Positions 10,352 to 51,932 of a stretch of 57,974 nucleotides of DNA are shown here, in pieces (the stretch's first letter is position 1; every line of letters begins with the position of its first letter). A model generated the notes under the pieces. That model was not told where the DNA came from and ran no database searches. It was given only the letters and a program-made list of their open reading frames with translations. Source of the DNA: Ferranicluibacter rubi (lineage in GTDB: Bacteria > Pseudomonadota > Alphaproteobacteria > Rhizobiales > Rhizobiaceae); contig NZ_JAANCM010000019.1 of NCBI RefSeq assembly GCF_011603255.1, positions 1 to 57,974 of the forward strand, given 5' to 3'. A program made the translations under genes and the position numbers.

Positions 10352-10366
10352 CGGGAACCTCGTCTT

Positions 10367-12063: not shown

Positions 12064-12077
12064 GTCGTCCTCCCGAA

Positions 12078-13166: not shown

Positions 13167-13220
13167 TGCGTTCCCCGCGGCCCGTTTTGCACGGACGTTC
13201 TTGGTTGTGGATCCGAAAGT

Positions 13221-13246: not shown

Positions 13247-13256
13247 GAGTACGGTT

Positions 13257-14108: not shown

Positions 14109-14148
14109 GCTCTTGGCTCCTGTTTTTTGTTCCCGTTATTGTTTGAAA

Positions 14149-14162
14149 GCCACGCACGTGGC
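14149..14162 (-). other. Small hairpin before the binding-protein gene
   Basis: GCCACG-CA-CGTGGC forms a 6-bp stem with a two-base loop in the 80-base gap between the FAD oxidase gene and the binding-protein gene. It may be a processing or stability site in the polycistronic RNA. Alternatively it is part of an operator for a separate promoter. Confidence 0.35.
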
Positions 14163-14188
14163 GTGAGCCTTCATTGCGCTCCGGGAGG

Positions 14189-18642: not shown

Positions 18643-18734
18643 CGCTTGATCCTCCGCTTGATCCTCGGCCCGGTCGTGCTGCCGAGGCTGTTGATTGGGA
18701 AGTTTGCATGAGCATTCCAACCTGTCAACAGAAT

Positions 18735-30385: not shown

Positions 30386-30931
30386 ATGGGTTCAGCAATT
30401 TCTTTGCGATCAGACTTTCGCGGGGACGGGCTGCGGATTCTGGCCCGACAGACAAAGGATGCGGACCAGGCGCGGCGGCTCCTGGCGCTTGCTTCGATCT
30501 ATGATGGCGGCTCTCGCGCTGATGCTGCGCGGCTCGGCAGCGTCACGGTGCAGATCGTGCGCGACTGGGTGGTGCGGTTCAACGCGCGCGGTCCCGATGG
30601 GTTGATCAACGGCAAGGCTCCGGGCAAGCCGTCACTGTTGAACGAAGATCAGCGCACGGCCTTGGCGCAAGCCATTGAGCGAGGCCCTACACCCTATCTC
30701 GACGGCGTCGTGCGCTGGCGTTTGTGTGATCTGGCCCAGTGGCTTTGGGAGGAATTCCGTGTCTCGGTGAGTGAGCAGACTTTGGGCCGCGAAGTGCGCT
30801 CGATGGGCTACCGCAAACTCTCGGCTCGCCCGAGACATCATGCGCAGGATGCCGAGACAGCCGAGGCGTTTAAAAAAACTTCCCCGCCGCAGTGGCAGAG
30901 GTCGCCGTCGGTCCCGCCAAGGGCAAGGTGA
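30386..30931 (+). CDS. IS630 transposase, upstream frame (DNA-binding part)
   Basis: Starts at ATG 30386 after CAGGAGG. The first 140 residues are the helix-turn-helix region of IS630 transposases (GGSRADAARLGSVTVQIVRDW, then LWEEFRVSVSEQTL). At TTTAAAAAAAC (30870-30880) a run of seven A precedes the point where the catalytic frame takes over. Slipping back one base yields a fused protein. The tail after the run (TSPPQWQRSP) is not family sequence. A programmed -1 frameshift is known for many IS630 relatives. Confidence 0.85.
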   Translation: MGSAISLRSDFRGDGLRILARQTKDADQARRLLALASIYDGGSRADAARLGSVTVQIVRDWVVRFNARGPDGLINGKAPGKPSLLNEDQRTALAQAIERGPTPYLDGVVRWRLCDLAQWLWEEFRVSVSEQTLGREVRSMGYRKLSARPRHHAQDAETAEAFKKTSPPQWQRSPSVPPRAR

Positions 30932-31446
30932 TCGAAATCTGGTTTCAGGACGAAGCGCGTATTGGGCAGAAGAACAAAATCACCCGCCGCTGGGCCAAGC
31001 GTGGATCAAGGCCATCCGCACCGCACGACCAGCGAACCCGCTCGGCCTATATCTTCGGCGCGATCTGCACCAAACACGGCAAGGCCGCCGCTCTCGTCAT
31101 GCCTTGGTGCGATACCCATGCCATGAACCAACATCTGATCGAAATCTCTCGAAACGTCGCCGACAATGGGCACGCCATTCTGATCATGGACCAGGCAGGA
31201 TGGCACATGTCCAACAACTTGGCCGTCCCCGAAAACATCACCATCCTACCCCTGCCGCCGAAATCACCCGAACTCAATCCCGTCGAAAACATCTGGCAGT
31301 TCATGCGTGAAAACTGGCTCTCGAACCGAGTCTTCAAATCCTACGAGGATATCGTCGACCACTGCTGCCACGCTTGGCGAACACTGCAGGACCGACCTTG
31401 GAAGATCATGTCCATCGGTCAGCGGCAATGGGCTCATAGGTTCTGA
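30892..31446 (+). CDS. IS630 transposase, downstream frame (DDE catalytic part)
   Basis: Contains the catalytic triad: Asp in IWFQDEARIG, Asp in ILIMDQAGWH and Glu in SPELNPVENIWQ. All three residues are present, so a fused product made by -1 slippage at the A7 run would be a complete DDE transposase. The apparent start at 30892 (GTG) is probably not used independently. The gene ends 16 bases before the right inverted repeat. Confidence 0.85.
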   Translation: MAEVAVGPAKGKVIEIWFQDEARIGQKNKITRRWAKRGSRPSAPHDQRTRSAYIFGAICTKHGKAAALVMPWCDTHAMNQHLIEISRNVADNGHAILIMDQAGWHMSNNLAVPENITILPLPPKSPELNPVENIWQFMRENWLSNRVFKSYEDIVDHCCHAWRTLQDRPWKIMSIGQRQWAHRF

Positions 31447-31721: not shown

Positions 31722-32594
31722 TCACGGCTTAAAATCAGGCGAAGCCTTCTCTATCACGATCGGCACAAGGACGAAGTCGAAGGGCGAACGCCACGCTGTA
31801 TAACCGTTTGTGAGACGTTCGAAAGGCGCGATCAAGGAGCTCTTAACGCCAAACACGGTGTCGGAGCTCAGATACGAGTCATCGCCGACAAAGGTGTGCG
31901 TCACAACCTTCTGAAAGCCAGGCGCGGTTACGAGGTAGTGCATATGCGCTGGACGAAAGGGATGACGGCCGAGCTGCGCGAGCATCTTCCCAACCGGGCC
32001 GTCGTCCGGGATCGGATATGACACCGGCTTGATGCCAACGAAGCTGTAGCGACCGTCTGAGCCGGTGACAAAGATACCTCGATTGTTCCAGCGCGGCTGG
32101 ATATCCGGCTGTTGGACGTCGTAGTAGCCGTCGGCATTATCTGACCAGACGTCGATTCGTGCACCTGCTATCGGATTGCCTTCGAGGTCGATCACGCGCC
32201 CTTCAAAGAGACAGGTCTCACCTTTGCCGTCGAGCGAGATCGTCGCTCCCATTTCACGGATCGGTGCGTTCGGGACGTGGAATGGACCGAACACTGTATT
32301 CTCTGTCGCGCCTTCGGGCCGTCGGTTGTTGATGGCATCGACCAGCATCGAGAAGCCAAGCGTGTCGCTGAGAAGGATAAACTCCTGGCGTTCGCCGGAA
32401 CACATCTTTCCGGTTCTGGTGAGGAAATCGATACCGACCTCCCACTCCTCCTGAGTGAGCTGCGTTTCTTTCGCAAAAGCATGAAGATGCTTGACCAGGC
32501 AAGCCATGACTTCAGCGAGACGGGGATTCGCTTCGGAGGCCGTCCGGGCATTTACCGCCTCGACCGAGCCCTCCTCCGTGAAGTAAACGTCCAT
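31722..32594 (-). CDS. Intradiol ring-cleavage dioxygenase, hydroxyquinol 1,2-dioxygenase type
   Basis: The 290-residue product has the N-terminal helical dimer region and the non-haem Fe(III) ligands of intradiol enzymes: Tyr158 (NADGYYDVQ), Tyr193 (PVSYPIP), His217 and His219 (RPAHMHYLV). Similarity to hydroxyquinol (1,2,4-trihydroxybenzene) enzymes is inferred from length, the ENTVFGPFHV segment and the maleylacetate reductase gene upstream. Product would be maleylacetate. Catechol or chlorocatechol cleavage is the alternative. It is the last gene of a nine-gene operon that contains no aromatic hydroxylase. Confidence 0.85.
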   Translation of the reverse strand: MDVYFTEEGSVEAVNARTASEANPRLAEVMACLVKHLHAFAKETQLTQEEWEVGIDFLTRTGKMCSGERQEFILLSDTLGFSMLVDAINNRRPEGATENTVFGPFHVPNAPIREMGATISLDGKGETCLFEGRVIDLEGNPIAGARIDVWSDNADGYYDVQQPDIQPRWNNRGIFVTGSDGRYSFVGIKPVSYPIPDDGPVGKMLAQLGRHPFRPAHMHYLVTAPGFQKVVTHTFVGDDSYLSSDTVFGVKSSLIAPFERLTNGYTAWRSPFDFVLVPIVIEKASPDFKP

Positions 32595-32704
32595 TCTTTT
32601 CTCCTCCTCCTAGCTCCTCATAGCCAAGTCGTTCCTGCAACGATCGGGTTGCCCGCTGGCTGGAGCGCTCATTAAGACCAAAGGCAAGTGTAAATCGTTA
32701 TCGC

Positions 32705-33766
32705 CTAGGGGCGCGGCTCAGCGCCCTCCCATGCGCGTTGAAGCAGCGCTCTCAGTGGCGCGGCCTCAACTGGCCGTGGGTTCCAGTAGGGTTTGGAAAG
32801 CGCGATCTCACAAGCGCGATCAAGGTCAGCCTCCTTCATTCCAAGGTCGCGGAGAGCTGTCGGCATACCTAGCTTCGTTGCTATCCGATGGAGGCCGCCA
32901 GGCCCGTCAGAAGCATGTATTGCGTTCGCAATCTGCTCCATGGCTTCCGGTGCATTAGGGCTATTATACGCCAGGGCGTGGGGCAAAACGATGGTATGCG
33001 TTTCCGCGTGCGGGAGGTTAAAAGTTCCTCCGAGCGTATGGCAGAGCTTATGGTGCAAAGACATTCCAACGTTGCCGAGCACCGTGCCGCAGAGCCAAGC
33101 TCCATAGAGGCACGACGCACGTGCTTCCTTGTCGTCTGGTGCCTCTACGAGCTGCGGCATTCCCTCGGCAAGCGCGCGAATTCCTTCCTGGCCCATAAGG
33201 GACATGACAGGATTGCCGTCCTGCGCGTAAAGCCCCTCGGCTGCATGAGCGATCGCATTCATCCCGCTGACGAGCGACATTCCGAGTGGCAGGGTCATCG
33301 TCAGATCCGGATCGTATATGACCGAGCGCGGCAGGACGCGAACATCCTTGCCCGTTCGTTTGAGACCGTTCTCGGTAATACCGTAGATCGGCGTCATTTC
33401 TGAACCGGCATAGGTCGTCGGAATAGCGATAATGGGGATCGAGGATTCAAGCGCAATCGCTTTGCCAAGACCGATGGTCGAGCCGCCTCCGATCGCAACA
33501 GCGCAATCTGCGCCGAGCTCCGCCGCGAGAGCCCGAGCTCTACGCGCGCTCTCGATCGGAACGTGCATTTCAGCTCCGTCATGGATACCCGCGAGGCGTG
33601 AGCCGAGCATTTCGGCCACCATCTCAGCCTGCGCGCGTTGAGGAGGCGTGCAAAGGACTAGCGCGCGGCTTGAACCGATCGCCTCGACCTCGTCGGCTAC
33701 GGTGGTGACTTTCCCAGTCCCGAACACCACCCGAGAAGGAAGTGCTTTATAGACAAATTCCCTCAT
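32705..33766 (-). CDS. Maleylacetate reductase
   Basis: A 353-residue iron-alcohol-dehydrogenase-fold protein starting at ATG 33766 (GGGAGG upstream, overlapping the DABB stop by one base). GGGSTIGLGKAIAL binds NAD(P)H, with GSEMTPIYG, NAIAHAAEGLY and SLHHKLCHTLGG further on. The metal ligands of true Fe-dependent dehydrogenases are only partly kept, as in maleylacetate reductases. It would reduce maleylacetate to 3-oxoadipate, which leads to succinate and acetyl-CoA. Position next to the intradiol dioxygenase supports the assignment. Confidence 0.88.
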   Translation of the reverse strand: MREFVYKALPSRVVFGTGKVTTVADEVEAIGSSRALVLCTPPQRAQAEMVAEMLGSRLAGIHDGAEMHVPIESARRARALAAELGADCAVAIGGGSTIGLGKAIALESSIPIIAIPTTYAGSEMTPIYGITENGLKRTGKDVRVLPRSVIYDPDLTMTLPLGMSLVSGMNAIAHAAEGLYAQDGNPVMSLMGQEGIRALAEGMPQLVEAPDDKEARASCLYGAWLCGTVLGNVGMSLHHKLCHTLGGTFNLPHAETHTIVLPHALAYNSPNAPEAMEQIANAIHASDGPGGLHRIATKLGMPTALRDLGMKEADLDRACEIALSKPYWNPRPVEAAPLRALLQRAWEGAEPRP

Positions 33767-34080
33767 CAAGCGCTTCCTCCCGCGACAGCATAATCCACCT
33801 GGTAGCGCGCGATCCTCATCTGACCCAGTTCTCCTTTGACCCTGATGTGTGCGGGATGCACCGCATAGGCATCGAGGGCTTCCTGACTTTCGAATTCCGT
33901 GTAGAGGACGACGTCGCAGGCATAATCAACGTGGCTGTGATCAAGACCCACCTCGAGGTGAAGCAGACCCGGCACCTCACCGCGCAATTGCTCGAAGCGG
34001 CTGCGGAGGAAATCGGCAGCCTTTGATCGATCCTCTTTCGTATCGCCTGCAACATTCCACATCACGATATGCTTAATCAT
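33766..34080 (-). CDS. DABB (stress-responsive A/B barrel) domain protein
   Basis: A 104-residue protein starting at ATG 34080 (CGGAG upstream). The N-terminal MIKHIVMWN with later LLHLEVGLDHS and DVVLYTEFESQEALDAY is the DABB pattern. Most members have no known activity, but plant olivetolic acid cyclase shows that this dimeric fold can catalyse ring-forming or aromatising chemistry. Here it is embedded between a dehydrogenase and maleylacetate reductase, so a role in isomerising or dehydrating a ring intermediate is possible. This is an inference. Confidence 0.85.
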   Translation of the reverse strand: MIKHIVMWNVAGDTKEDRSKAADFLRSRFEQLRGEVPGLLHLEVGLDHSHVDYACDVVLYTEFESQEALDAYAVHPAHIRVKGELGQMRIARYQVDYAVAGGSA

Positions 34081-34139
34081 TATGATACTCCGTAGACGCG
34101 AGGATCTTGTGGCACCGCACGTTGCCAAGCTCATCTGAG

Positions 34140-35225
34140 TTAAAGCTTGATCTCGGCCCCGTTCTGCGACGATGACTGGAAGAGTGCCTCAAGGACACGG
34201 TTGATATTGTGCGCTTGCTGAGCCGGGACGTTTGAAGGCGCACCTGTCCGCAAGGAATTCGCGAAGGTGGCTGCCTCTCGGTCAAAATAGACGGGGTTCC
34301 CGATTTCAGCGATTTCCGGGGAGTAGATTGTCTTGCGGACAGCCCAGACTTCCGGGAAGCTCGTTTCATTCCATTCTGTCCAGCCCTCGGGCAGGCCGGT
34401 CTTGCCTGTGCTGTAGAGCTTGTAGGAAGCTGGCATCGGGCGGGAATGCAGTACGCCTTCGGTGCCATAGGCGGTGATATCCCAGCTCTCCGTCCACGGA
34501 AGCGGATCCCAGGACATGAAGTCGATGGTGATCATCTTGTCGGAATAGTTCAGGATCGCTCCGGCAGCGTCTTCCCGAGCGGCCGGCACCATGACACCGT
34601 CGAACTTGGTGATACGGGCGTTGACCGACTGGGGCATGCCGAAGTGCAGCAGAAGCCGATCGATCGTGTGGCAGCCGATCACGTAGAACGCCCCACCGAT
34701 ATCGCCAGGCTGGCGCATGTGGTCGGTGTCAGCCTCTCCATGGGAGCAGCCCGCGTGCGCGCGCACTTGCAGCACCTTGCCAAGCTGACCGGCCTGCAAG
34801 ACTTCCTGCATCTTGTCGATCGACGGCGCATAGCGCCAGCAGTAGCCGACCTGAAAGAGCTGTCCCGTCTTCTCGACGGCTTCGACCAACCTTACTGTGT
34901 CAACGGATCCCCGGCCTGCAGGCTTTTCACAAAGAACAGCCTTTCCTGCTTCCATGGCTTCGATGGCCCACTCGGCCATCAGATAACTTTTCGGGTGGAT
35001 CAGAACCGCGTGAACCTCGGGGTCAGCAAGGATATCCTCTTTGGTCCGCTTGGAAATGCCCATCGCCTCAACGAATGGATCGAGCAGAGGGCTGGTATCA
35101 TAAGCGCCCAGCACCTTGGCGTTCGACATGCGTTGAAATGCCTTCACGCGCCCGGAGGTGTGCGGATGCGTGATGCCGAGGCAAGCGATCCCGAGTGTGG
35201 TGTCGGCTCCAATGGCATAGGTCAT
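34140..35225 (-). CDS. Gfo/Idh/MocA family oxidoreductase (first of two)
   Basis: A 361-residue protein starting at ATG 35225 with GGGAG upstream; the frame continues upstream only as shadow of the next gene. It has the Rossmann domain (LGIACLGITHPHTSGRVKAFQ), the signature CEKPAG in VLCEKPAGR, and a C-terminal substrate domain with GGAFYVIGCHTIDRLL. The N-terminal Gly loop is non-classical (GITHPH), typical of one subgroup. It would oxidise a sugar or cyclitol hydroxyl with NAD(P). It is distinct from the IolG-like enzyme encoded just upstream. Confidence 0.87.
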   Translation of the reverse strand: MTYAIGADTTLGIACLGITHPHTSGRVKAFQRMSNAKVLGAYDTSPLLDPFVEAMGISKRTKEDILADPEVHAVLIHPKSYLMAEWAIEAMEAGKAVLCEKPAGRGSVDTVRLVEAVEKTGQLFQVGYCWRYAPSIDKMQEVLQAGQLGKVLQVRAHAGCSHGEADTDHMRQPGDIGGAFYVIGCHTIDRLLLHFGMPQSVNARITKFDGVMVPAAREDAAGAILNYSDKMITIDFMSWDPLPWTESWDITAYGTEGVLHSRPMPASYKLYSTGKTGLPEGWTEWNETSFPEVWAVRKTIYSPEIAEIGNPVYFDREAATFANSLRTGAPSNVPAQQAHNINRVLEALFQSSSQNGAEIKL

Positions 35226-35250
35226 GACGATATTCTCCCTTATTATAATT

Positions 35251-36246
35251 TCAGACGCTGACGGCGCGGCCGGTACGCGCGGACTCGACGGCGCATTCGG
35301 CAAGGCGCAGAGCAAGGACCCCATCGCGCACAGTGGTCGGCATGGGCTTGCCGCCCTCGATCGCATCAATGAACGCATCCATTTCTGCCCGGTAAGCCTG
35401 TGCGTATCGTTCGAGGAAGAAGTTGAGCAAAGGCTCCCGCGCGTCGGTGAGATCGGCCGTCGTTACCCGCATGGTTGTCGGCCGGAGGTTATCCTGGGTG
35501 AGCATGCCTGAAGCGCCAAGCACCTCGACGCGCTGGTCATAACCATAGACCGCTTCGCGGCAGTTGTTGATGTGCGCCTGCCGTCCGCTTGCAGTCTGCA
35601 GTACGACCATCACTGTATCGTAATCTTCGTACTGACCTACAAGCTCTGGATCGACAAGGCGCGAGCCTACGGCAGTGACGAGCATCGGCTCCTCACCAAG
35701 CAGCCAGCGCGCCATATCAAAATCGTGGATGGTCATGTCGCGAAAGATACCGCCGGAAGTCTTCACATAGGCAGGCGGGGGCATGCCAGGATCGCGGCTG
35801 GATATGATCACCTGACGGACCTCTCCAATACGGCCAGCATCAATCGCACGGCGCATCTCGGCGAAAGTGCTGTCAAAGCGCCGGTTGAAAGCGAGCATGA
35901 CCTTGCCCCCTCTACGCTCCACCTCGGCCGCAGCGCTTTCGCTCTTTGTCATATCGAGATCGATCGGCTTCTCGCACAGAACGGCTTTACCGAGCTCGAT
36001 GGCCTTCATGAGGAAGCCGACATGCGTGTCCGTGGGCGTGCCGATCACAACGGCATCGACGTCCACGCGCTCGATCGCGGCCATGGCATCGGTCATGGCT
36101 TCTGCGCCATGCGCATCCGCGACAGACTTGGCAGCGTCCGCAAAGGGGTCCGCCACCGCGATCAACTGCGCCTTCGGGTTGGCCGCCACGCTCGCGGCAT
36201 GGATTTTGCCGATACGCCCGGCGCCAAGGACTGCAATTCTTACCAT
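35251..36246 (-). CDS. Inositol 2-dehydrogenase-like Gfo/Idh/MocA oxidoreductase
   Basis: The 331-residue product has GAGRIGKIHA for NAD binding, VLCEKPIDLD for the conserved Lys, and YGYDQRVEVLG and GGIFRDMTIHDFDMARW, all typical of IolG-type inositol dehydrogenases. It should oxidise a cyclitol or related polyol at one ring carbon, giving an inosose. It lies 25 bases upstream of the other Gfo/Idh gene and 52 after the TIM-barrel gene. The exact substrate is open. Confidence 0.87.
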   Translation of the reverse strand: MVRIAVLGAGRIGKIHAASVAANPKAQLIAVADPFADAAKSVADAHGAEAMTDAMAAIERVDVDAVVIGTPTDTHVGFLMKAIELGKAVLCEKPIDLDMTKSESAAAEVERRGGKVMLAFNRRFDSTFAEMRRAIDAGRIGEVRQVIISSRDPGMPPPAYVKTSGGIFRDMTIHDFDMARWLLGEEPMLVTAVGSRLVDPELVGQYEDYDTVMVVLQTASGRQAHINNCREAVYGYDQRVEVLGASGMLTQDNLRPTTMRVTTADLTDAREPLLNFFLERYAQAYRAEMDAFIDAIEGGKPMPTTVRDGVLALRLAECAVESARTGRAVSV

Positions 36247-36298
36247 CTTGGAATTCCTTAAGTTCTAGATCGGGGGTATCCGCCCCGTTTGAGTTCGG

Positions 36299-37177
36299 TC
36301 AGTCGCTCGGCAAGGTGACGGCGCGAAACTGCTGCATCGTCGTGTCGAACGCCCGCTGTGCGGCAAGCTCAAGGGGGAGGTGGCGGTGATAGGCCGAAAT
36401 GACCTCGACCCCCCAATAGCCCCGGTATCCAACGTCCAGGACGGCTTGGACCTGAGATGGGATGTCGATCGAGCCTTCGCCGCAGAGACGTCGGTAGTGT
36501 GTCGAGTCGTTGAAAAAAGAGCCGAGAATTTCGGGACCCGCATCATCCAGCTCGACTGCGCGGAGAAAATCCGTAGGTATTTGACGGATATCGTCGGCTG
36601 TCATGCCGCCGCGCTCGATATGCCAGGTATCGACCAGAAGCCCCCCGTTCGTCGTGCCGAGTCCTTCGAAGAGCGCCAAACCGCGTTTAATGTTGTTGAT
36701 GCTGGCGAATGGAAGAAACTCGATGACGATATCGATGCCGAGTGGCGCCGCGCGTTCGCAGATCGAATGCAGGGCGCTCCGCATAGCAGGAAGATCCGGC
36801 TCGCCTTCTTCGAAGATGCCGCCGCCTATCTTGATCTTCTTGATGCCGATTTCGGCCCCGAGCTCCAAAAGGCGGTCGTACATCGTATCGGATGCAAGAC
36901 GCCGCTCGCCGCCGAGATGCCAGTCGACGAGGAATTCGAGTTCAACGTGGCGAATGCCGTTGTCCGAAAAGATCTGACGGACGGTCGGCAGCCCGTAGCG
37001 GGTGACCGATGCATTCATATCGTCGAGAACAAACCCCATGCCCCGCCAGCCGATACGACCGCAGACCTCGGCGCGTTCTTTCAAGGAAAACGGACTGATC
37101 TCAGTTGGCGAGCCGGGGTGAACAGCTCCACTGACCGTCCAGTACGTCGCGCAAAGTTCGATGTCTTCTATTCGCAT
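36299..37177 (-). CDS. Sugar phosphate isomerase/epimerase-fold protein (IolE/IolI-like TIM barrel)
   Basis: The 292-residue product fits the xylose isomerase-like TIM barrel (AP endonuclease 2 superfamily). Candidate metal ligands are Glu in IVIEFLPF, Asp and His in LLVDTWHIERGG, Glu or Asp in AVELDDAGP, and Glu in GVEVISA. Such proteins include inosose dehydratase, inosose isomerase, keto-sugar epimerases and the C-glycoside-cleaving enzymes. With two cyclitol or sugar dehydrogenases beside it, a dehydratase or beta-eliminating role is reasonable. I cannot assign a substrate. Confidence 0.8.
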   Translation of the reverse strand: MRIEDIELCATYWTVSGAVHPGSPTEISPFSLKERAEVCGRIGWRGMGFVLDDMNASVTRYGLPTVRQIFSDNGIRHVELEFLVDWHLGGERRLASDTMYDRLLELGAEIGIKKIKIGGGIFEEGEPDLPAMRSALHSICERAAPLGIDIVIEFLPFASINNIKRGLALFEGLGTTNGGLLVDTWHIERGGMTADDIRQIPTDFLRAVELDDAGPEILGSFFNDSTHYRRLCGEGSIDIPSQVQAVLDVGYRGYWGVEVISAYHRHLPLELAAQRAFDTTMQQFRAVTLPSD

Positions 37178-37243
37178 GTCTGCAATCTTTCTAATGCGGC
37201 ATTCTTTTGGATTGGATCCTAGCCCCGAGGAGCAGGAACCATT

Positions 37244-38452
37244 TTAGAAGCTTTGGTGTCCGGTCGCCCGCTCGATGAGTTTGTCGATGGAAACGGCCAG
37301 AACCAAAAGGAGGCCGGTGACGATAAGGCGGACTTCGTTTTCGACACCCAGCAGATTAAGTCCGTTGCTGACCGTCCCGATAACCAGCGCGCCAAGCAGC
37401 GCTGCGTGGATCGAGCCGCGACCTCCGAAGAGGCTGACGCCGCCGATGACGGCAGCCGCGATGGACTCCAACAGCAGAGTTCCACCACCCACGCCGCCAC
37501 CCGAGAACACGCCCACGCCGAGCGTCCGCGATGCCGCGATCACACCGGCGAGAGCGGCAACCCCTCCGGCGATCGCGAAGGCGGCCATCTTGATGCTCGC
37601 TACCTTGATGCCGGCGCGTCGCGCCGCTTCCTCATTGTTGCCGACAGCGTAGAGGTAAAGACCGAACTGCGTGCTCTTGAGGATGTAGCCGCCGATCCCC
37701 AAGAGGACGGCGAAAATCAGTACCACAAGTGGGATACCCTGGTGTGCGGTCAGGATTGCCACGACGATCACGCCGAACACTGCAGCCGCAGCAATTGGTG
37801 TCGCGACAGTCTGCATGAATGGCGATTGTAGTCCGACCTTCTTCCGTCGTGCCTCGTCGGACAATACGACTGCGGCGTAGACCAGAAGAACCAGAGCGAG
37901 GGATAGCCAAGCCCACACGCCGCTGATGCTTGTGAGAGCGATCTTCTCAATGCCAGTCTGCTGCAAGCCGTAGCGGGCCGTCGACGGCAGGAGGATAAGT
38001 TGCAGTCCGTTAAGCGCGAGGCCGAGGCCTAGGGTTACGACGAACGAGGGTACGCCAACGAATGTCACCCATCGCGCCGAACAGCTCCCAATAGCTGCAC
38101 CGATGAGAACAGCCGTGGGAACTGCGACCCAAGGGGAAAAACCGAACTCCACGATAAGTTTCGCCATAAGAACGGATGTGACACCGTTGATGGCGGCTAT
38201 CGAGAGGTCGATCTCTTTCACTAGGAGAACGAACATCAGGCCGAGAGCCATGATCCCGACGACGGTGCTTTGCACCAGAAGGTTTGAAAGGTTCCGGGAG
38301 GTCAGGAACACATCGCTTTGGGAGGCGAAAAAGATCCCGAGTGCGACAAGACCGATGACGATCGGCAGTGCCCGAAGGTCGCTGGAGAGCAGTTCGCCGA
38401 AGCTGCGGCGGGGACGTTGCGCAGGCGCATCAACCGTCATGGTGTTGGCCAT
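37244..38452 (-). CDS. Sugar-type ABC transporter permease (XylH/FrcC-like)
   Basis: A 402-residue protein starting at ATG 38452 (GAGGAAT upstream; an in-frame ATG at 38488 lacks one). It has about ten hydrophobic segments and the LLVKEIDLSIAAINGV and YAVGNNEEAARRAGI signatures of carbohydrate ABC permeases that work as homodimers with a RbsA/XylG-class ATPase. The long form (about 400 residues) is like XylH. Acts in the inner membrane with the ATPase upstream. Confidence 0.92.
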   Translation of the reverse strand: MANTMTVDAPAQRPRRSFGELLSSDLRALPIVIGLVALGIFFASQSDVFLTSRNLSNLLVQSTVVGIMALGLMFVLLVKEIDLSIAAINGVTSVLMAKLIVEFGFSPWVAVPTAVLIGAAIGSCSARWVTFVGVPSFVVTLGLGLALNGLQLILLPSTARYGLQQTGIEKIALTSISGVWAWLSLALVLLVYAAVVLSDEARRKKVGLQSPFMQTVATPIAAAAVFGVIVVAILTAHQGIPLVVLIFAVLLGIGGYILKSTQFGLYLYAVGNNEEAARRAGIKVASIKMAAFAIAGGVAALAGVIAASRTLGVGVFSGGGVGGGTLLLESIAAAVIGGVSLFGGRGSIHAALLGALVIGTVSNGLNLLGVENEVRLIVTGLLLVLAVSIDKLIERATGHQSF

Positions 38453-38484
38453 TGGATATTCCTCAAAGATTCTAGGGTTTGCGG

Positions 38485-39291
38485 TCAACCCGCAAGATTG
38501 ACGCCTTCGTTGCCGCCGACCATGGCGTTGACGACCTGCTCGCCTGTCACGTCTTTCGACTTGAAGCTCGCCACGTTGGTTCCAAGGCGCATGACTTCTA
38601 TCCGGTCAGTCGCGTTCACAACGAAATGATGGATGTCGTGGCTGACGATAACAATGCCGAGGCCTTGATCGGCCAGCATCCTGACGAGGGTCGAGACGCC
38701 TTCAGCCGCTGAATGGCTGAGTGCCGCGGTCGGCTCGTCGAGGATGACGACCTTTGGCGTTTCCAGGATTGATCGTGCAATTGCGATGTTCTGACGCTGA
38801 CCTCCAGACATGGCGCCGACCGGCCGCGTCAGAGACAGGTTGCCGAGTCGCATCCGCGTGAGGATCTCACGCGCGCGGACCTCGCATTCGGCGCGACGGA
38901 TGCGTCCGCCACCCCACCACGAACCCGTTCGTTCGCGTCCAAGGAAAAGGTTCTGCACGGCATCGAGATTGCTGCAAAGCGAGAGATCCTGGTAGACCGT
39001 CTGGATTCCCAACGCCGTTGCGTCCGTAGGCTTTTTGACCCGAACAGGCTTTCCCTCGAAGAGGTAGTCGCCGGAGTCTGAAGCGTGAACACCAGCCATG
39101 ACCTTCACGAGCGTTGATTTACCCGCACCGTTGTCCCCGACCAGAGCGACGATCTCACCAGGGTATACGTCAACGGAAGCGCCGCGTAGAGCGTGCAAGG
39201 ATCCGAAATGCTTCTGGATGTTGCGAAGCGAAATAATAGGGGTGGCGCTGTTGTAAGCCGTTGCCGGTCTCTCTGCTGCCAGTGCTGTCAT
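38485..39291 (-). CDS. Sugar-type ABC transporter ATP-binding protein, single domain
   Basis: A 268-residue protein starting at ATG 39291 (GGGAGG upstream). Walker A is GDNGAGKST, the signature MSGGQRQNIAIAR and Walker B VVILDEPTAAL are present, and the switch His is in VIVSHDIHH. Unlike RbsA or XylG it carries one ATPase domain, not two, as in FrcA-type transporters of rhizobia. It is separated from the binding-protein gene by a GC-rich hairpin. Confidence 0.92.
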   Translation of the reverse strand: MTALAAERPATAYNSATPIISLRNIQKHFGSLHALRGASVDVYPGEIVALVGDNGAGKSTLVKVMAGVHASDSGDYLFEGKPVRVKKPTDATALGIQTVYQDLSLCSNLDAVQNLFLGRERTGSWWGGGRIRRAECEVRAREILTRMRLGNLSLTRPVGAMSGGQRQNIAIARSILETPKVVILDEPTAALSHSAAEGVSTLVRMLADQGLGIVIVSHDIHHFVVNATDRIEVMRLGTNVASFKSKDVTGEQVVNAMVGGNEGVNLAG

Positions 39292-39316
39292 CAGGTAGTC
39301 CTCCCAGAAGTGAGAA

Positions 39317-39341
39317 GGGCGGGCGGCTGAGCCCCCCGCCC
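39317..39341 (-). terminator. Hairpin between sugar-binding protein and ATPase genes
   Basis: GGGCGGG (39317-39323) pairs with CCCGCCC (39335-39341), with an inner GGC-TGA-GCC stem, in the 56-base gap right after the binding-protein stop. As in the betaine operon, such a hairpin can raise binding-protein levels relative to downstream subunits. There is no U-run for efficient termination. Confidence 0.65.
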
Positions 39342-39347
39342 AGTCGT

Positions 39348-40424
39348 TCACATGTTGGTCTTGCAGACCTCGGTGCTTTCGATGCCCTGGCAGATTTCCT
39401 TCCAGCTCCAGACACCCTTCTTCACCACATCGCCGAGATTGTCCTTGGTGATATTCTCCACCGGCAGCAGGATTGCAGGCACATCGGCAAACTCGTTGTT
39501 GACCGTGCCGTTGACGAGATTCTTGGGAACCCCCTTGCCGTCGAGGATCGACGAAACGACCTTGGCGGCTTCGGTCGCTTCGACCTTGAGGTCCTTCAGC
39601 ACCGAGTTGTCCTGCCAGCCTTGCGCAACATAACGGAGCGCCTCCACGGTCGCATCCTGACCGCCGGTGACAACCTTATCGCCGGGTTTAAAGCCTTGGC
39701 TGATCAGAGCGGCCACCGAGCCACCGGTCGTGCCGTCGTTCATGCCAACGAACACGTCGACATCGCCGCCATTCTTGGTCAGGCAGTCTTCCGCGAATGA
39801 CTGAGCAAGCGTCGGGTCCCAGTTCTGTGTGTACTGTTCGCAGACGACCGTGACCTTTCCTGCGTCGATCAAAGGCTGGATGAATTCGTTCTGGCCCTTT
39901 TCATACTGCCCAGTGCCATATTCGCCCTGATTGCCCTTTATCCGAGCGACCTTTACCGGTGACTTGGCCATCGTGTTGATAAGCTCCGCCGCCCGCTTGC
40001 CCTGCGCCTGACCGACAGCAAGCGAGTCGAAAACCACGTGAGCCTCGGCTTTGCCGCCGACAGCATCGTGGTCGTAGAGAACGACCGGCACATTGGCGGC
40101 TTGAGCGGCCGCGAGACCGCCAGCGATGAGATTGGCGTCGGCAGAGGTCAACAGGATCAATTTTGCACCCTGCGAGATGGCGTCTTCGATCTGCCGCTGC
40201 TGCTGCTGTGGGTCGCCCTGCGCGTTCTGGACCACGATCTCAGTATTCGGACGCATGCCCTTCATGGCTTCAACAAAGAACGGAGCATCGCGGCTTTCAA
40301 ACCGGATCGTCGTCGTGTTCGGAAGTAGGAAAAATACCTTTTCCATGGTCTGTGCCTGGACGGTGCCAGCGAGACCAGCGAAAGAAGCGGTCGTGACCAG
40401 TAGTGCGGTGATTAGGCCCTTCAT
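39348..40424 (-). CDS. Sugar-type ABC transporter substrate-binding protein
   Basis: A 358-residue protein starting at ATG 40424 (GGGAGGA upstream). The signal peptide ends near VQA (about residue 24). The mature protein is a periplasmic binding protein of the LacI/RbsB-like type (QNAQGDPQQQQRQIEDAISQGAKLILLTSADAN; a split of short motifs including GNQGEYGTGQ). Four Cys may form disulfides. It is the first gene of the operon and presumably binds the cyclitol or glycoside that feeds the downstream enzymes. Confidence 0.9.
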   Translation of the reverse strand: MKGLITALLVTTASFAGLAGTVQAQTMEKVFFLLPNTTTIRFESRDAPFFVEAMKGMRPNTEIVVQNAQGDPQQQQRQIEDAISQGAKLILLTSADANLIAGGLAAAQAANVPVVLYDHDAVGGKAEAHVVFDSLAVGQAQGKRAAELINTMAKSPVKVARIKGNQGEYGTGQYEKGQNEFIQPLIDAGKVTVVCEQYTQNWDPTLAQSFAEDCLTKNGGDVDVFVGMNDGTTGGSVAALISQGFKPGDKVVTGGQDATVEALRYVAQGWQDNSVLKDLKVEATEAAKVVSSILDGKGVPKNLVNGTVNNEFADVPAILLPVENITKDNLGDVVKKGVWSWKEICQGIESTEVCKTNM

Positions 40425-40560
40425 TATGATATCCTCCCAGATGAAACTTAAGGCGTGTGCATGCCACCGGCTGTGGCTGAGCAACTCCCTTTAACATTTA
40501 CAAAATCTGAGATTAACAGGCCATTTTGGGAAACATTTTTGCAAAAAATGCAAAACACGG

Positions 40561-41475
40561 CTAAACGGTCCAATGGCGTTCAAAATCGTTTAGACGGAAA
40601 CGTTCAACGAGGAAGTCGATAAAAAGCCTCGTTCGAACGGGCATGAAAGACTTGCTCGGATAAGCGATGTTCATGGTGAGACGCGGAAGATCCCAGTCAT
40701 CGAGAACTCTGATGAGGCGGCCTGCGTTCAAGTCTTCTTGAATTATGTAGGTCGGCTGAGCAAGGATACCTAAGCTGTCGCGAGCGGCCTGACAGATCAA
40801 CTGACCGTCGTTGGCAAGGATCGCACCGTCGACCTTCACGGAGACTGATTCCTGGCCGCGACTGAACTTGAATTCATTCCAGTTGTCGGCCAAAGTGTAT
40901 AAGATAAGGTCGTGCGCCATGAGGTCGTTTGGATGTTCAGGAATGCCTTTTCGGCTTAGATAGTCAGCGGAAGCTGCCAGCAGGCGACGTGTCTCACCCA
41001 ACCGCCGTATAGTGATTGAGCTGTCCGCTTCGACACGGCGGGTGCGTATTGCCAGGTCCAACCCATTCTCGATGATATCGTAGTAGCGGTTCGAAGAGAT
41101 TATTTCGATCGAGAGGGTGGGGTAGATTCGACGAAACTGCGCAACCACGGGCATAAGATGAAGCAGGGAAAAAGATAGGGATGCTCCAATCCGAAGCCGA
41201 CCTGTGGGGGCATGCGAGCGTGCCGTGACGTTCGCCTCGGCCGCGTCCCATGTTGCAAGAAGATCTCGCGCGTCTGCAAAAAGTGCTTCGCCTTCGCTCG
41301 TCAGACTGAGCTGACGCGTCGATCTTTGTACAAGTCTAGCACCTAGACGTGTCTCGAGGTTCACCAAGTGTCGGCTGATGCCGGAAACTGAAAGGCCCAG
41401 CGTGCTCGCTGCCTTCGTCATACTCCGCTCCTCAGCGATCTTGACAAAGACGTGAAACTCGGTCCAGCGGTCCAT
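40561..41475 (-). CDS. LysR-family regulator upstream of the hydroxyquinol operon
   Basis: A 304-residue protein starting at ATG 41475 (GGAAGAG upstream); a TTG at 41505 would add ten residues. The helix-turn-helix is SMTKAASTLGLSVSGISRHLVNLE and the effector domain is of the CrgA-like group. It is transcribed in the same direction as the transporter operon, ending 136 bases before its first gene, so it may be part of or upstream from the same transcript. It probably controls that operon. Confidence 0.88.
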   Translation of the reverse strand: MDRWTEFHVFVKIAEERSMTKAASTLGLSVSGISRHLVNLETRLGARLVQRSTRQLSLTSEGEALFADARDLLATWDAAEANVTARSHAPTGRLRIGASLSFSLLHLMPVVAQFRRIYPTLSIEIISSNRYYDIIENGLDLAIRTRRVEADSSITIRRLGETRRLLAASADYLSRKGIPEHPNDLMAHDLILYTLADNWNEFKFSRGQESVSVKVDGAILANDGQLICQAARDSLGILAQPTYIIQEDLNAGRLIRVLDDWDLPRLTMNIAYPSKSFMPVRTRLFIDFLVERFRLNDFERHWTV

Positions 41476-41568: not shown

Positions 41569-41868
41569 TCAGTGCGTTAGAAGCGTGCTAGATGTCGATA
41601 GCTCGAGCGTTATTGTTACAATGAACGTGACTGTGCTTTTATTGACGAGTGTGAACTCGAGAGGCTCGACGCTGCTGAAGATTGCCCCCAGCCAACTCTC
41701 GATGTTTGTCGTCCGCAAATACCCCCTTACGTCGAGTAGAAGCTTGAGATCGTCGAGTTCTAAGATAGTCGTTCCGAGGTTGACCCCTTGGTGGTAGACA
41801 TCGATGCGGTAATTGTACAGCCTGCGATCTGGTCGAGCGGAGGATTGTTGCGGAAGACCTGTACTCAT
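41569..41868 (-). CDS. Small hypothetical protein
   Basis: A 99-residue frame starting at ATG 41868 with GAGG six bases upstream. The middle has a DVRGYLRTTNIESWLGAIF stretch and the C-terminus is rich in Thr, Ser and Val with alternating beta-like pattern. I do not recognise a family. It is acidic-neutral with no signal peptide or membrane helix. An imperfect inverted repeat lies just upstream. It could be a real orphan gene of this island. Confidence 0.5.
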   Translation of the reverse strand: MSTGLPQQSSARPDRRLYNYRIDVYHQGVNLGTTILELDDLKLLLDVRGYLRTTNIESWLGAIFSSVEPLEFTLVNKSTVTFIVTITLELSTSSTLLTH

Positions 41869-42026: not shown

Positions 42027-43379
42027 TGAACCGCCCCGGCTTTACCGGAGACCTTAACTCGTGAGAAGTAGGGTCTATCACAAGCAAAACGACGAACAAA
42101 TTTTCTCCTGAAGTTCGTGCCCGTGCTGTTCAGATAGTGACGGAGCATGAAGCCGAACTTCTCTCCCGCTGGGCGGCAGTATCATCGATAGCGGCCAAGA
42201 TCGGTTGCTCGGCGCATACCCTCCATGAATGGGTGAAGAAGGCCGAGGTCGACAGCGGCAAGCGTGCAGGTTTGTCGAGTGACGTGGCCGAGAAGATGAA
42301 GGCTCTGGAACGGGAGAACCGGGAGCTTCGTCAGGCGAATGAGATTCTACGCAAAGCCTCGGCGTATTTTGCCCAGGCCCTTTCAGCGAATGCAAGCATT
42401 CCCTTGTCGGGCAAGGGGAGCTCGACCGCCCACTGAAGCGATGATTTCCTTCATCGACGAACACCGCTCGGTGCTCGGGGGCCGATCTGCAGGCTGCTGC
42501 CGATTGCCCGTCCACCTATTATGAAGTCGTCGCCAAGCGCACGGACGTGGGTCGCCTATCAGCCCGCGAACGGAATGATATTGCTATGAAAGTCGAGATA
42601 CGCCGGGTGTTCAACGAGAACTTCCAGGTCTATGGCGTGCGGAAAGTGTGGCGACAGTTGCAGCGAGAAGGCTTCGACGTCGCACGGCTCGCACCGTCGC
42701 AAGGCTCATGAGAATGATGGGTCTTCAAGGCATCATTCGTGGCAAGCCGATCAAAACCACTATATCGGACAAGTCTGCTCCGTGTCCGCTCAACCGCATC
42801 AATCGCCACTTCAAGGCTCCCGCGCCGAACATGCTGTGGTTATCCGAGTTCACCTATGTCGCGACCTGGCAAGGCTTCGTTTACGTGGCCTTTGTCATTG
42901 ATGCCTTCGCCCGCCGTATCGTCGGTTGGCGGGCAAGCCGGACGGCTCATACCGGCCTTGTGCTCGATGCCCTCGACCAGGCGCTTCATGAGCGGCGGCC
43001 TGTCAAACGCGGCGGGCTGGTTTATCATTCCGACCGCGGCTCGCAATATGTGTCCATTCGCTATTCCGAACGGCTGGCGGAGGCGGGCATCGAGCCGTCT
43101 GTCGGAAGCGTTGGCGACAGTTACGACTGCTCTCGCCGAGACGATCAACGGTCTTTTTAAGGCCGAGGTCATCCATCGCGGGGGACCGTGGCGTAGCTTT
43201 GAAGCCGTGGAGTTCGCCACGCTCGAATGGGTCGACTGGTTCAACAACCGCCGCCTTCTGGAGCCCATCGGAAATAATCGCCTGCCGAGGCTGAAGAACG
43301 ATACTATGCCATGCTGGACGCACTAGCCATGGCCGCGTAAGTTAAACCAAACGGTCTCCGGTAAAGCCGGGGCGGTTCA
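42027..43379 (+). mobile_element. Decayed IS3-type insertion sequence
   Basis: The first 27 bases (42027-42053, starting TGAACCGCCCCGG) and the last 27 (43353-43379) are exact inverted repeats. The 1353-base length and OrfA/OrfB layout fit the IS3 family. No target duplication is obvious. The ends are intact, so the element could still be moved by a transposase supplied in trans, although its own genes are broken. Confidence 0.85.
42077..43340 (+). pseudogene. IS3-type transposase OrfA and OrfB, multiply broken
   Basis: OrfA reads [20 protein letters not shown] from 42080, but the expected ATG at 42077 is ATC. After KASAYFAQA (near 42379) about 38 extra bases containing two small hairpins shift the frame before the usual ELDRPLK end. 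OrfB starts at ATG 42441 (MISFIDEHRSVLG) and has indels near 42477, 42505, 42690 and 43123, and changes near 43270. The integrase core is recognisable (YVATWQGFVYVAFVID, YHSDRGSQY, NGLFKAEVIH), but the first catalytic Asp is Glu in WLSEFTYV. It is a dead transposase. Confidence 0.8.
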
Positions 43380-50057: not shown

Positions 50058-50355
50058 TTCTTTTCCTTCCAGCCCGAAAATCGTGTGTCTCAGCTTGTTG
50101 ATTCGGTGAGGCCGCCTCTAGCTCCGTTGTTGTGCAGGCTCAGGCGTCTGATTGGAACGCAGCGACAGCTCTTTTAGGTGGGTCGCAGCGCTATAATATT
50201 CTCGGATGTGAGGTCCCGAATTCAACTGAGCCTAGAGTCAACAGGGTCTCCCAGAGGACCGTGCCGTAGCTGGCAGCAAGACATTGATATGATGGTGATG
50301 TTGAGATTTTTTCTTGCCTGTGCAGTATGGGGAAAAACGCTGGGCTAACGACTTT

Positions 50356-51537
50356 ATGAACGCGGACGATATCTGGAATAGCCTGAGCGATTTTCCCGCT
50401 CCGGATGGCCTTCTGTCGGAAGGCGGCATGATGGGTGATGCGATCCGCCACCATGACTGGGCGGCGACCTCCCTAGGCCCGATGGCAACGTGGCCACTTT
50501 CCTTAAAGAATGCGCTGCGCATGATGCTGACGTCCCGCCAGCCAATGTCGCTGTTCTGGGGTCGTGACCTGATCATGCTCTACAACGACGGCTACGCACC
50601 GTTCCTCGCCGAACGCCATGGACGGGCGCTGGGTCAGCCATTCCAGACGATCTGGAGCGACGTTTGGCAGGAGCTAGTGCCGCTGGTTGCGGAAACGCTT
50701 TCCGGTCGCGGCACAGGCGGCGAGGACATCCGTTTGATGATGCTGCGCGATGGCGTGGAGGTCGAAACCTTCTGGACGTTTTCCTATACACCGGTCCATG
50801 ACGACCATGGCAGGATCGCAGGCCTGATCAACATTACCACTGAAACGACGTCTCACGTCCGCAGCCAGGCTGCTGCGGCAGCGATCATTGAAGATACTCA
50901 ACGCCAGCTGGAACATACGATGCAGCTGGAGCGACAGCGGCGCATTGTGCAGCGTGAGATGGCGCACCGCATCAAGAATATTTTGTCAATGACTATGGCA
51001 GTGGTGTCGCAAAGCATGCGTCATGCAACAAGCATCGAGGATGCACAGGAAACAATCACGCACCGGATCGGTGCCTTGGCCAAGGCCCAGGACATCCTGA
51101 CCGACACGGAATTCCGGGATGCTAATGTCCGCTCGATCATCGAGCAGGTCCTCAAGCCCCATCAGGACCATAGTGGCCGGACCCGCCTTGATGGCCGCGA
51201 TGTGAAGGTTTCGGCGCAACAAGCGCTAGGCCTGTCGCTTGCTATGCATGAGCTGGCCACAAACGCCGTCAAGTACGGTGCCCTGTCCAACGAGAACGGT
51301 ACGATTTCCGTTAGGTGGGAGGAGGGTGCCGACAACACGTTCCGGCTCGAATGGCAGGAAGCCGGTGGTCCGCCGGTAGTGCCGCCAAGCCGCAAGGGGT
51401 TCGGCTCGCGCCTGACCGGCCGGATCGTCGGGGGGTATTTCAACGGGGCGGGTGATATCGATTATCATCCCCAAGGTGTTCGTTACGTGCTGACGGGGAC
51501 AATCGAGCGCCTCGCAGACGAACTTAATCCTTCTTGA
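50356..51537 (+). CDS. HWE-family sensor histidine kinase with PAS-like domain
   Basis: About 393 residues from ATG 50356; TTG 50314 and GTG 50320 are alternative starts, and no strong ribosome binding site decides. The N-terminal 180 residues hold a PAS-like sensor (FWGRDLIMLYNDGYAPFLAERHG, then a PAC-like end at GLINITTET). The HWE kinase core has the phospho-accepting His204 in EMAHRIKN, the N box HELATNAVKYGALS, the WxE-type LEWQEAGG and GFGSRL. No membrane segment is seen, so it is cytoplasmic. Its stop overlaps the response-regulator start. Confidence 0.9.
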   Translation: MNADDIWNSLSDFPAPDGLLSEGGMMGDAIRHHDWAATSLGPMATWPLSLKNALRMMLTSRQPMSLFWGRDLIMLYNDGYAPFLAERHGRALGQPFQTIWSDVWQELVPLVAETLSGRGTGGEDIRLMMLRDGVEVETFWTFSYTPVHDDHGRIAGLINITTETTSHVRSQAAAAAIIEDTQRQLEHTMQLERQRRIVQREMAHRIKNILSMTMAVVSQSMRHATSIEDAQETITHRIGALAKAQDILTDTEFRDANVRSIIEQVLKPHQDHSGRTRLDGRDVKVSAQQALGLSLAMHELATNAVKYGALSNENGTISVRWEEGADNTFRLEWQEAGGPPVVPPSRKGFGSRLTGRIVGGYFNGAGDIDYHPQGVRYVLTGTIERLADELNPS

Positions 51538-51932
51538 TGACTTTAAGGCCGATGAAAAGCATGCAGCCGTTAAAAGTCCTCGTCGTCGAGGACGAGATCA
51601 TTCTCCTGGTCGATATCGTGGATCTCGTGGAAGACAGCGGATTCCGCGCGCTGGAGGCGCAGAACGCTGATGCCGCAATGATCCTGCTGCAACAGCACAC
51701 CGATATCGACGTCCTGATCACCGACATCGACATGCCGGGTTCCATGGACGGTCTGGAGCTGGCACGTCGTGCGCGTGGAATCTATCCGGATATGGCCGTG
51801 GTGGTCATTTCCGGAAAGTTGCACGCTTCAAAGAACGATGTGCCTCCGCGCGGCCGCTTCATCCCGAAGCCCTACCCCCGGTTGGCGATCATGGAAGTGC
51901 TTAAGGCGTTGGCGACGCCGTCATATCATTAG
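51537..51932 (+). CDS. Single-domain response regulator
   Basis: A 131-residue receiver from ATG 51537 (overlaps the kinase stop by one base; Met codons at 51552 and 51561 are alternatives). It has the acidic pocket VEDE, the phosphorylation site Asp63 in LITDIDMPG and the conserved Lys in FIPKPY. There is no output domain. It probably acts through protein contact, as partner or phosphate sink of the HWE kinase. Confidence 0.9.
   Translation: MTLRPMKSMQPLKVLVVEDEIILLVDIVDLVEDSGFRALEAQNADAAMILLQQHTDIDVLITDIDMPGSMDGLELARRARGIYPDMAVVVISGKLHASKNDVPPRGRFIPKPYPRLAIMEVLKALATPSYH

Follow-up and report, generated by a model that had tools for sequence, protein, structure and literature searches.

The stretch analysed here (the window) comprises 57,974 nucleotides of contig NZ_JAANCM010000019.1 of Ferranicluibacter rubi, and its subject is a cluster of ten co-directional minus-strand genes at 31722-41475, in which a sugar importer and an inositol-type dehydrogenase stand beside two enzymes of hydroxyquinol ring cleavage. 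All genes that an earlier note on this DNA had listed in this interval were found in place. That note spoke of a nine-gene operon; nine catabolic and transport genes are indeed present, but the interval holds ten genes, as 41475 is the start of a gene for a LysR-family regulator. From the upstream end, the genes are as follows.

40561 to 41475, minus strand: LysR-family regulator, first gene of the cluster (Pfam HTH_1 and LysR_substrate)
39348 to 40424, minus strand: periplasmic binding protein of a CUT2-type sugar importer (Peripla_BP_4; XylF-like, 160.2 bits against a cut-off of 389.55)
38485 to 39291, minus strand: single-domain ABC ATPase of the importer (ABC_tran; 268 amino acids)
37244 to 38452, minus strand: importer permease (BPD_transp_2; top NCBIfam match GguB, under its cut-off)
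36299 to 37177, minus strand: TIM-barrel protein (TIM), proposed metal-dependent cyclitol-ketone dehydratase (AP_endonuc_2, Pfam, 69.1 bits against a cut-off of 31.1)
35251 to 36246, minus strand: IolG-type inositol 2-dehydrogenase (IolG), proposed to catalyse the first oxidation (TIGR04380, 405.1 bits against a cut-off of 355)
34140 to 35225, minus strand: Gfo2, a divergent Gfo/Idh/MocA protein (GFO_IDH_MocA domains)
33766 to 34080, minus strand: DABB protein, proposed dehydratase or aromatase (Pfam Dabb)
32705 to 33766, minus strand: maleylacetate reductase (MAR; ADH_Fe)
31722 to 32594, minus strand: hydroxyquinol 1,2-dioxygenase (HQD; Dioxygenase_N and Dioxygenase_C)

The intergenic gaps among the nine catabolic and transport genes range from -1 to 110 bp, and 136 bp separate the LysR gene from the binding-protein gene. 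Promoter and terminator scans gave counts within the shuffled expectation (2 versus 3.5 and 8 versus 9.3, respectively). A LysR orthologue with 74-90% identity immediately precedes the binding-protein gene in four of ten homologous loci from the species-genome collection and in locus L017. The host genome measures 5.47 Mb in 42 contigs.

The ring-cleaving half of the operon belongs to well-known families. The earlier note had placed a hydroxyquinol 1,2-dioxygenase and a maleylacetate reductase here, and Pfam and the solved relatives agree. Among solved structures, HQD is closest to 8r2x (6-chlorohydroxyquinol 1,2-dioxygenase), 1tmx (hydroxyquinol 1,2-dioxygenase) and 3n9t (PnpC), with catechol dioxygenases well behind; the protein falls under the cut-off for the catechol and chlorocatechol models, and it has identical letters at seven positions of 1tmx that we take to line the substrate pocket. 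It is thus predicted to be a hydroxyquinol-type intradiol dioxygenase. MAR has 3jzd, 3w5s and 3hl0 as its best solved relatives, of which 3w5s and 3hl0 are named maleylacetate reductase, and the same function is predicted for it. Two other intradiol genes of the host lie side by side on contig 33. Genes for a CoA-transferase and a thiolase follow the operon directly in Aureimonas sp. AU20 and after one small open reading frame (ORF) in Sinorhizobium fredii, and the host carries a thiolase gene that shares 78% identity with the PcaF downstream of the AU20 operon. With standard HQD and MAR and a close PcaF-type thiolase, a route from hydroxyquinol to central metabolism in the host is plausible.

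The upper half of the operon is of a different kind. Its transporter, which the earlier note had described as sugar-type, is CUT2-type by Pfam, NCBIfam and solved relatives: a Peripla_BP_4 binding protein whose best solved relative is XylF (3m9w), a BPD_transp_2 permease, and a sugar-type ATPase with which the models YtfR, RbsA and XylG align by their N-terminal half only. Two proteins of the Gfo/Idh/MocA dehydrogenase family are present, as had been proposed, one of them a full inositol 2-dehydrogenase and the other, Gfo2, divergent. IolG has 4hkt and 3euw as its best solved relatives and retains the motifs CEKPIDLD, FNRRFD and FRDMTIHDFD of the solved inositol 2-dehydrogenase 4hkt. The host encodes two further IolG proteins above the cut-off, on contigs 38 and 40, which are 52% and 45% identical to that of the operon. 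At position 231, beside the motif YGYDQR, the IolG of the window and its ten closest counterparts (the type A relatives described below) have Glu, where both host paralogues have Arg; a changed substrate is possible. Because the host also has two iolD genes above the cut-off on other contigs (11 and 40), ordinary inositol is served by a route of its own there, and the operon is not that route.

The earlier note had called the product of 36299..37177 an IolE-like TIM barrel. The barrel stands; the IolE assignment was rejected, since no IolE model is among the NCBIfam matches at E <= 0.001, which consist of QuiC 3-dehydroshikimate dehydratase and IolO, both far under their cut-offs. Among solved proteins it is most closely related to Lmo2234, IolI and 5hmq, the last of which we take to be QuiC1, and these are also the closest folds to its AlphaFold2 model (predicted local distance difference test score (pLDDT) 80.2 with 11 sequences; residues 215-235 are poor); no entry named as a C-deglycosidase is among the 50 fold matches listed. 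Residues E153, D183, H186, E209, R229 and E258 are invariant across 13 aligned copies, including that of the window. E153, D183, E209 and E258 are presumably the four metal-site positions, so that the protein is predicted to combine the AP_endonuc_2 fold with an all-acidic four-ligand metal site, the third position being Glu in this protein, His in IolI and Gln in 5hmq in the alignments. The likeness to the QuiC/AsbF dehydratases thus lies in the fold, in metal-site positions of presumed role and in a ring-ketone dehydration that yields an aromatic product, whereas the protein of the window has a single domain, a Glu as third ligand and a score of 42.4 bits against the QuiC model, far under its cut-off of 1200. 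Both IolI and QuiC1, its nearest relatives of known function, have six-membered carbocyclic ketones as their substrates. Together with the inositol dehydrogenase encoded next to it, the relationship of the barrel to IolI, Lmo2234 and QuiC1 points to a cyclitol ketone.

The two remaining proteins are harder to place. Gfo2 is 81-91% identical to seven other type A copies. Its best solved relative is DgpA, by a weak and partial match (2.8e-16 with a profile), and its profile also weakly reaches dimeric dihydrodiol dehydrogenase (9.4e-10, far down a list of 36). Gfo2 carries CLGITHPH where IolG shows GAGRIGKIH, at what we take to be the cofactor-binding glycine motif, and lacks the Asp that DgpA and yvaA have ahead of the presumed active-site His. 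It may not be a normal dehydrogenase, although 3u3x, a named oxidoreductase, has a variant motif resembling that of Gfo2. The DABB protein, which the earlier note had also listed and which matches Pfam Dabb, gave a structure model with a pLDDT of 78.3. Olivetolic acid cyclase and hydroxynitrile lyase are among its nearest folds with a named function in Foldseek, and methylmuconolactone isomerase ranks lower; Tyr 72 and His 78 match mutant positions of the listed olivetolic acid cyclase entries, by number only, and H5 is mismatched.

The earlier note had suggested looking for the pairing of this TIM barrel with an intradiol dioxygenase in other genomes, and the pairing recurs. We considered 23 TIM homologues: the window, ten loci of the species-genome collection, ten plasmid records chosen among the 40 best of 169, and two survey genomes. 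Weaker homologues stand outside this count (L025 in the host, 27% identical; L074 and L076, 23-25%; a second TIM gene in L016), and L074 and L076 lie near distant HQD-like genes. An HQD gene is near the TIM gene in 21 of the 23, window included, with that of L010 being a partial gene at a contig end. HQD, MAR and DABB are present at all ten loci of the species-genome collection, one HQD being truncated by a contig end, and the nearest relative of the TIM barrel (86% identity) is in Rhizobium sp. Leaf371. The full enzyme set of TIM, IolG, Gfo2, DABB, MAR and HQD was found in ten other loci (one HQD being contig-truncated). A chance gene neighbourhood was rejected on this recurrence.

We refer to this enzyme set with a CUT2 importer as type A. 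It occurs in Aureimonas, Rhizobium sp. Leaf371, Puniceibacterium, Thioclava, Alloyangia, Novosphingobium, Azospirillum and one further genome of the same phylum; in Azospirillum, Novosphingobium and the further genome the importer is a different, ChvE-like CUT2 system, and in Paracoccus the contig (L010) starts within HQD, which leaves the importer out of view. A second arrangement, type B, consists of TIM, two short-chain dehydrogenases/reductases (SDRs), DABB and/or YciI, MAR and HQD, and is found on plasmids of Rhizobium leguminosarum, R. beringeri, R. gallicum, S. fredii and Agrobacterium; the R. gallicum and R. beringeri loci also have Gfo2 (72% identical). A Shinella locus resembles type B, and MAR was not found at that locus. 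In Burkholderia and Caballeronia, TIM, DABB, MAR and HQD are accompanied by an amidohydrolase, a flavin mononucleotide (FMN) reductase, an SDR, a Gfo protein and a sugar binding protein, and Rhodococcus opacus combines TIM, SDRs, an NTF2-like protein, MAR, HQD and a sugar importer.

Some of the variant loci have further features. L011 encodes a PRK08204-type amidohydrolase (7946-9957), and the copy in L035 (8106-12744) is 58% identical to it; in L035, a flavin adenine dinucleotide (FAD) oxidase and a 3-hydroxyisobutyrate-dehydrogenase-like gene lie beside HQD and DABB. The amidohydrolase variants may serve other, perhaps nitrogen-bearing, substrates. On a Sphingobium plasmid (L019, 9001-9864), a TIM homologue of about 40% identity lies between FAD-binding oxidoreductases in a cluster free of HQD, where its role is perhaps that of a keto-sugar lyase.

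The neighbourhoods of TIM-linked HQD genes differ from those of other HQD genes. In the class sample, 55 HQD-like places (E <= 1e-40) were found in 46 of 385 genomes, the window's own included; the 60 comparison loci are the other 54 of these and six plasmid records chosen among the 60 best of 307. Of the 54 class-sample stretches, 20 are shorter than 20 kb owing to contig ends, so that neighbours may be missed there. The TIM-linked set numbers 20 (L010, L019 and L081, which have no full HQD, are left out), and neighbours were counted within 10 kb of HQD. DABB was found at 17/20 TIM-linked loci versus 1/60 others, a reference-matched sugar binding protein at 16/20 versus 1/60, MAR at 19/20 versus 16/60 and Gfo2 at 12/20 versus 0/60. 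A match to any of five flavin-monooxygenase references, in contrast, was found at 0/20 versus 16/60. Fisher values on these contrasts are descriptive only, as they ignore relatedness. The binding-protein and monooxygenase counts contradict a pattern that the earlier note had named as fatal to its idea, namely homologous operons that always contain a hydroxylase and lack the sugar genes. None of the 54 class-sample loci has a TIM homologue of at least 35% identity within 10 kb of HQD.

Known routes to hydroxyquinol provide a direct comparison. The 16 monooxygenase-positive loci comprise 10 of the 54 class-sample loci and all six plasmid records, and 14 of the 27 other loci whose HQD is at least 50% identical to that of the window have such a match; 44 of the 60 have neither TIM nor a reference monooxygenase, and many of these perhaps do not encode true HQDs. 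The six plasmid-record HQDs, 77-83% identical to that of the window, all sit with a flavin enzyme, the records of R. johnstonii 3841 and Rhizobium sp. Kim5 being gamma-resorcylate clusters with a tsdA decarboxylase, and the closest class-sample HQDs (L026, 76%; L027, 74%) also have a reference-type monooxygenase. The gra-type (gamma-resorcylate/resorcinol) operon on pRL12 of R. johnstonii 3841 resembles that of the window in HQD (77% identical) and MAR (56%), but it has a flavin monooxygenase, a flavin reductase and a decarboxylase, in place of which the operon of the window has the sugar importer, IolG, Gfo2, TIM and DABB. A plain gra operon was rejected as an explanation, as neither the hydroxylase nor the decarboxylase is in the operon. 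The earlier note had seen no flavin monooxygenase there, in agreement with Pfam on the ten genes; nor do the five references, three of them from plasmid records and one from L026, or close copies of these, match any part of the 21 TIM-linked stretches, among them the entire window. The host genome has no close gra-type hydroxylase (best 29% identity), the gra type being the only one sought genome-wide.

The history of the HQD gene also bears on its substrate. In the TIM tree, 10 of the 11 type A copies fall in one branch (98/99), and the eleventh (L080) is placed close to those from Burkholderia. Type A is split into two separate clades in the HQD tree: one of 15 holds the HQDs of the window, two Aureimonas, Leaf371 and Puniceibacterium with eight monooxygenase-linked and two type B HQDs, and in the other, four type B or Shinella HQDs accompany those of Thioclava, Alloyangia, Novosphingobium, Azospirillum and L080. 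Forcing the type A HQDs into one clade costs 207.9 log units (p-AU 7.7e-76) in an approximately unbiased (AU) test on 34 hand-picked rows of 80, with the tested group defined after the first tree. Gene order follows the same division, as HQD is the last gene in the clade of the window and lies directly before TIM in the Thioclava-side clade and in L010. MAR shows no such jump, judged by identity only (85-87% to Aureimonas and Leaf371, 81% to Puniceibacterium and 76-78% to Thioclava, Alloyangia and Novosphingobium). The simplest reading is that an ordinary hydroxyquinol operon supplied a substitute for the original ring-cleaving gene. Such a replacement suggests that both HQDs act on the same compound and, because the HQD of the window groups with monooxygenase-linked ones, that a standard hydroxyquinol enzyme could stand in.

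Taken together, the locus is a recurrent catabolic unit that combines a known ring-cleavage half with a new upper half. Catabolic pathways as a rule receive their aromatic rings from aromatic nutrients, and hydroxyquinol normally arises through an oxygenase. We lean, with somewhat more confidence than doubt, towards reading the operon as a unit for the catabolism of a cyclitol, most simply a quercitol-type deoxyinositol, which would be oxidised and dehydrated to hydroxyquinol without an oxygenase and then cleaved. The CUT2 importer would bring in the cyclitol, a polyhydroxylated cyclohexane, and IolG would oxidise one hydroxyl to a ketone (C6H12O5 - 2H = C6H10O5). The TIM barrel, as a metal-dependent enzyme of the IolI/QuiC kind, would catalyse a dehydration next to the ketone, and another dehydration, perhaps assisted by DABB, would aromatise the ring (C6H10O5 - 2 H2O = C6H6O3, hydroxyquinol), so that the aromatic ring would arise without an oxygenase. 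HQD would then open the ring to maleylacetate, MAR would reduce this to 3-oxoadipate, and enzymes encoded elsewhere would complete the route. By atom balance, the hydroxyl oxidised in a quercitol would have to adjoin the CH2 group to give 1,2,4-trihydroxybenzene, as oxidation elsewhere would give pyrogallol. The substrate, the order of the steps and the roles of TIM, Gfo2 and DABB are those that we infer. Aromatisation of a quercitol had been put forward in the earlier note; the neighbourhood evidence and the family placement of IolG and TIM favour it, with the dehydratase no longer labelled IolE-like. Oxygenase-free cyclitol aromatisation is the best-supported mechanism, though unproven.

Published chemistry and natural occurrence are compatible with this route. 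Excerpts of one paper describe the acid-catalysed dehydration of myo-inosose to 1,2,3,4-tetrahydroxybenzene (PMC11467972), which makes the chemistry of the proposed route reasonable. Quercitol is reported from oak and eucalyptus in the excerpted text of another (PMC8919412), and viburnitol appears as a suspect-list annotation in the exometabolome of the marine alga Prymnesium parvum, again according to an excerpt (PMC12303313); these sources fit the plant-associated and marine hosts, which proves nothing. No paper listed in searches of the open-access literature deals with this unit or with cyclitol-to-hydroxyquinol catabolism in its title or the opening of its abstract, a scope that leaves subscription journals mostly outside.

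Several observations weigh against the proposed cyclitol route. Gfo2 has no place in the minimal scheme, though it is among the best-conserved genes, and DABB proteins are functionally diverse. Two of the 23 TIM homologues (L019 and L081) are in clusters without HQD, which indicates that the TIM family is not tied to hydroxyquinol, and conversely L035, from the same order, has HQD, MAR, DABB, the amidohydrolase, the FAD oxidase and sugar transport genes with no TIM match. Variants other than type A have no close IolG and carry SDRs, an amidohydrolase or an FAD oxidase instead, so that the substrate class may be broader. The TIM homologue is also rare, its profile being positive in 1/397 genomes of the order, 2/398 of the phylum and 2/385 of the class, own genome included; at most six candidates per genome were scored in these surveys and in the class-sample HQD survey, which makes the tallies lower bounds. 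Finally, a screen with five monooxygenase references would miss unrelated hydroxylases, and possible oxygenase parts do occur at some loci: the Burkholderia cluster has an FMN reductase inside and a PhyH-type dioxygenase beyond it, Agrobacterium L018 has an LLM flavin-dependent oxidoreductase and an FMN reductase about 9-11 kb from HQD, and Shinella L015 has a cytochrome P450 about 9 kb from HQD. These parts, which slightly lower our confidence in the proposed route, have no counterpart in the operon of the window.

An O- or C-linked aryl glycoside of hydroxyquinol is an unlikely substrate. Chemistry on 3-keto-glycosides employs Gfo and TIM-barrel proteins, as in C-glycoside catabolism (DgpA/B/C and CarA-C), and here a Gfo protein would oxidise C3 of the sugar, TIM would free the aglycone, the second dehydrogenase would recover the sugar and HQD would cleave the aglycone. 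The earlier note had offered such a model as its second choice; it gains from the position of DgpA as the best solved relative of Gfo2, weak as that match is, and from the Sphingobium TIM homologue among FAD-binding oxidoreductases, and it is weakened by the lack, by Pfam, of both a glycosidase and a DUF6379-type lyase subunit among the ten operon genes, DUF6379 being presumably the family of the small (beta) lyase subunit of C-glycoside deglycosidases. In contrast to C-glycoside catabolism, the operon has an inositol-type IolG and HQD and MAR, and TIM is nearest to IolI, Lmo2234 and QuiC1. Hydroxyquinol glycosides are rare, and CUT2 importers carry mostly monosaccharides. The specific assignment of TIM as a C-deglycosidase was rejected on the missing DUF6379 match and on the listed fold matches.

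We give little credence to a cyclohexanetetrol, such as the 1,2,4,5-tetrol that occurs in some algae, as the starting compound. IolG and Gfo2 would each oxidise one hydroxyl and TIM would remove one water (C6H12O4 - 4H - H2O = C6H6O3), a scheme that employs both dehydrogenases and a single dehydratase. IolG and Gfo2 are adjacent in 11/11 type A loci, although the presence of the two is what defines type A; several hosts belong to the Paracoccaceae or Roseobacteraceae, families with many marine members; and the dihydrodiol dehydrogenase that the Gfo2 profile weakly reaches is an aromatising member of the fold family. However, without the canonical Rossmann glycine motif and the Asp, Gfo2 may not be a dehydrogenase at all, a point that the 3u3x variant renders non-decisive.

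An inositol as the substrate appears similarly improbable. In this scheme, IolG would oxidise it, TIM would dehydrate the ketone, Gfo2 would reduce the resulting dione and two more waters would be lost, a redox-neutral conversion (C6H12O6 - 3 H2O = C6H6O3) that would account both for an IolG above the inositol 2-dehydrogenase cut-off and for a second Gfo protein alongside it in type A. Its selective value is doubtful in a host with two iolD genes and two more IolG proteins, and the type A IolG differs from both paralogues in having E231 where they have Arg. The operon resembles myo-inositol (iol) catabolism in its IolG, its CUT2-type importer and a xylose-isomerase-like TIM barrel, but none of its genes matches iolB, iolC, iolD or iolE and it ends in intradiol ring cleavage; a plain inositol operon was rejected on these missing matches and on the two iolD loci elsewhere.

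A chance union of an unrelated sugar operon with an ordinary hydroxyquinol pathway, whose hydroxylase gene would lie elsewhere, is very improbable: the lower-pathway genes are standard, transposase genes on both flanks make chance assembly in this genome possible and only the gra-type hydroxylase was sought across the whole host genome, but the combination recurs in many genomes of proteobacteria and Rhodococcus and the host has no close hydroxylase of that type.

The transposase domains flanking the operon are DDE_3 at 30892-31443 (region 30386-31443) on one side and HTH_Tnp_1 and rve within 42137-43157 on the other, and fit with a mobile origin and a patchy distribution. A 99-aa ORF at 41569-41868, upstream of LysR on the same strand, has no Pfam match. 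About 9 kb from the operon, two adjacent genes with similar starts, one of them response-regulator-like, lie at 50314-51932, and their counterparts directly adjoin the operon in Rhizobium sp. Leaf371 (L005, 15807-17374), hinting at a shared island. At 9353-18720, judged from ORF starts, lies a hydroxyproline-catabolism-like set (proline-racemase-like, ABC transporter, FAD oxidase, aldehyde dehydrogenase and DapA-like genes).

More generally, we are evenly divided on the proposition that some bacteria degrade deoxyinositols by way of a benzene ring, in which dehydrogenation and a double dehydration would give hydroxyquinol and O2 would enter at cleavage only, with at least four variants using different dehydrogenases and with ring-cleavage genes exchanged with aromatic operons. 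If true, this would provide enzymes for making polyhydroxybenzenes from renewable polyols without oxygenases. It would also give quercitols a catabolic fate, explain the recurrent gene cluster, and link cyclitol and aromatic catabolism through the aromatisation of a saturated, sugar-like ring.

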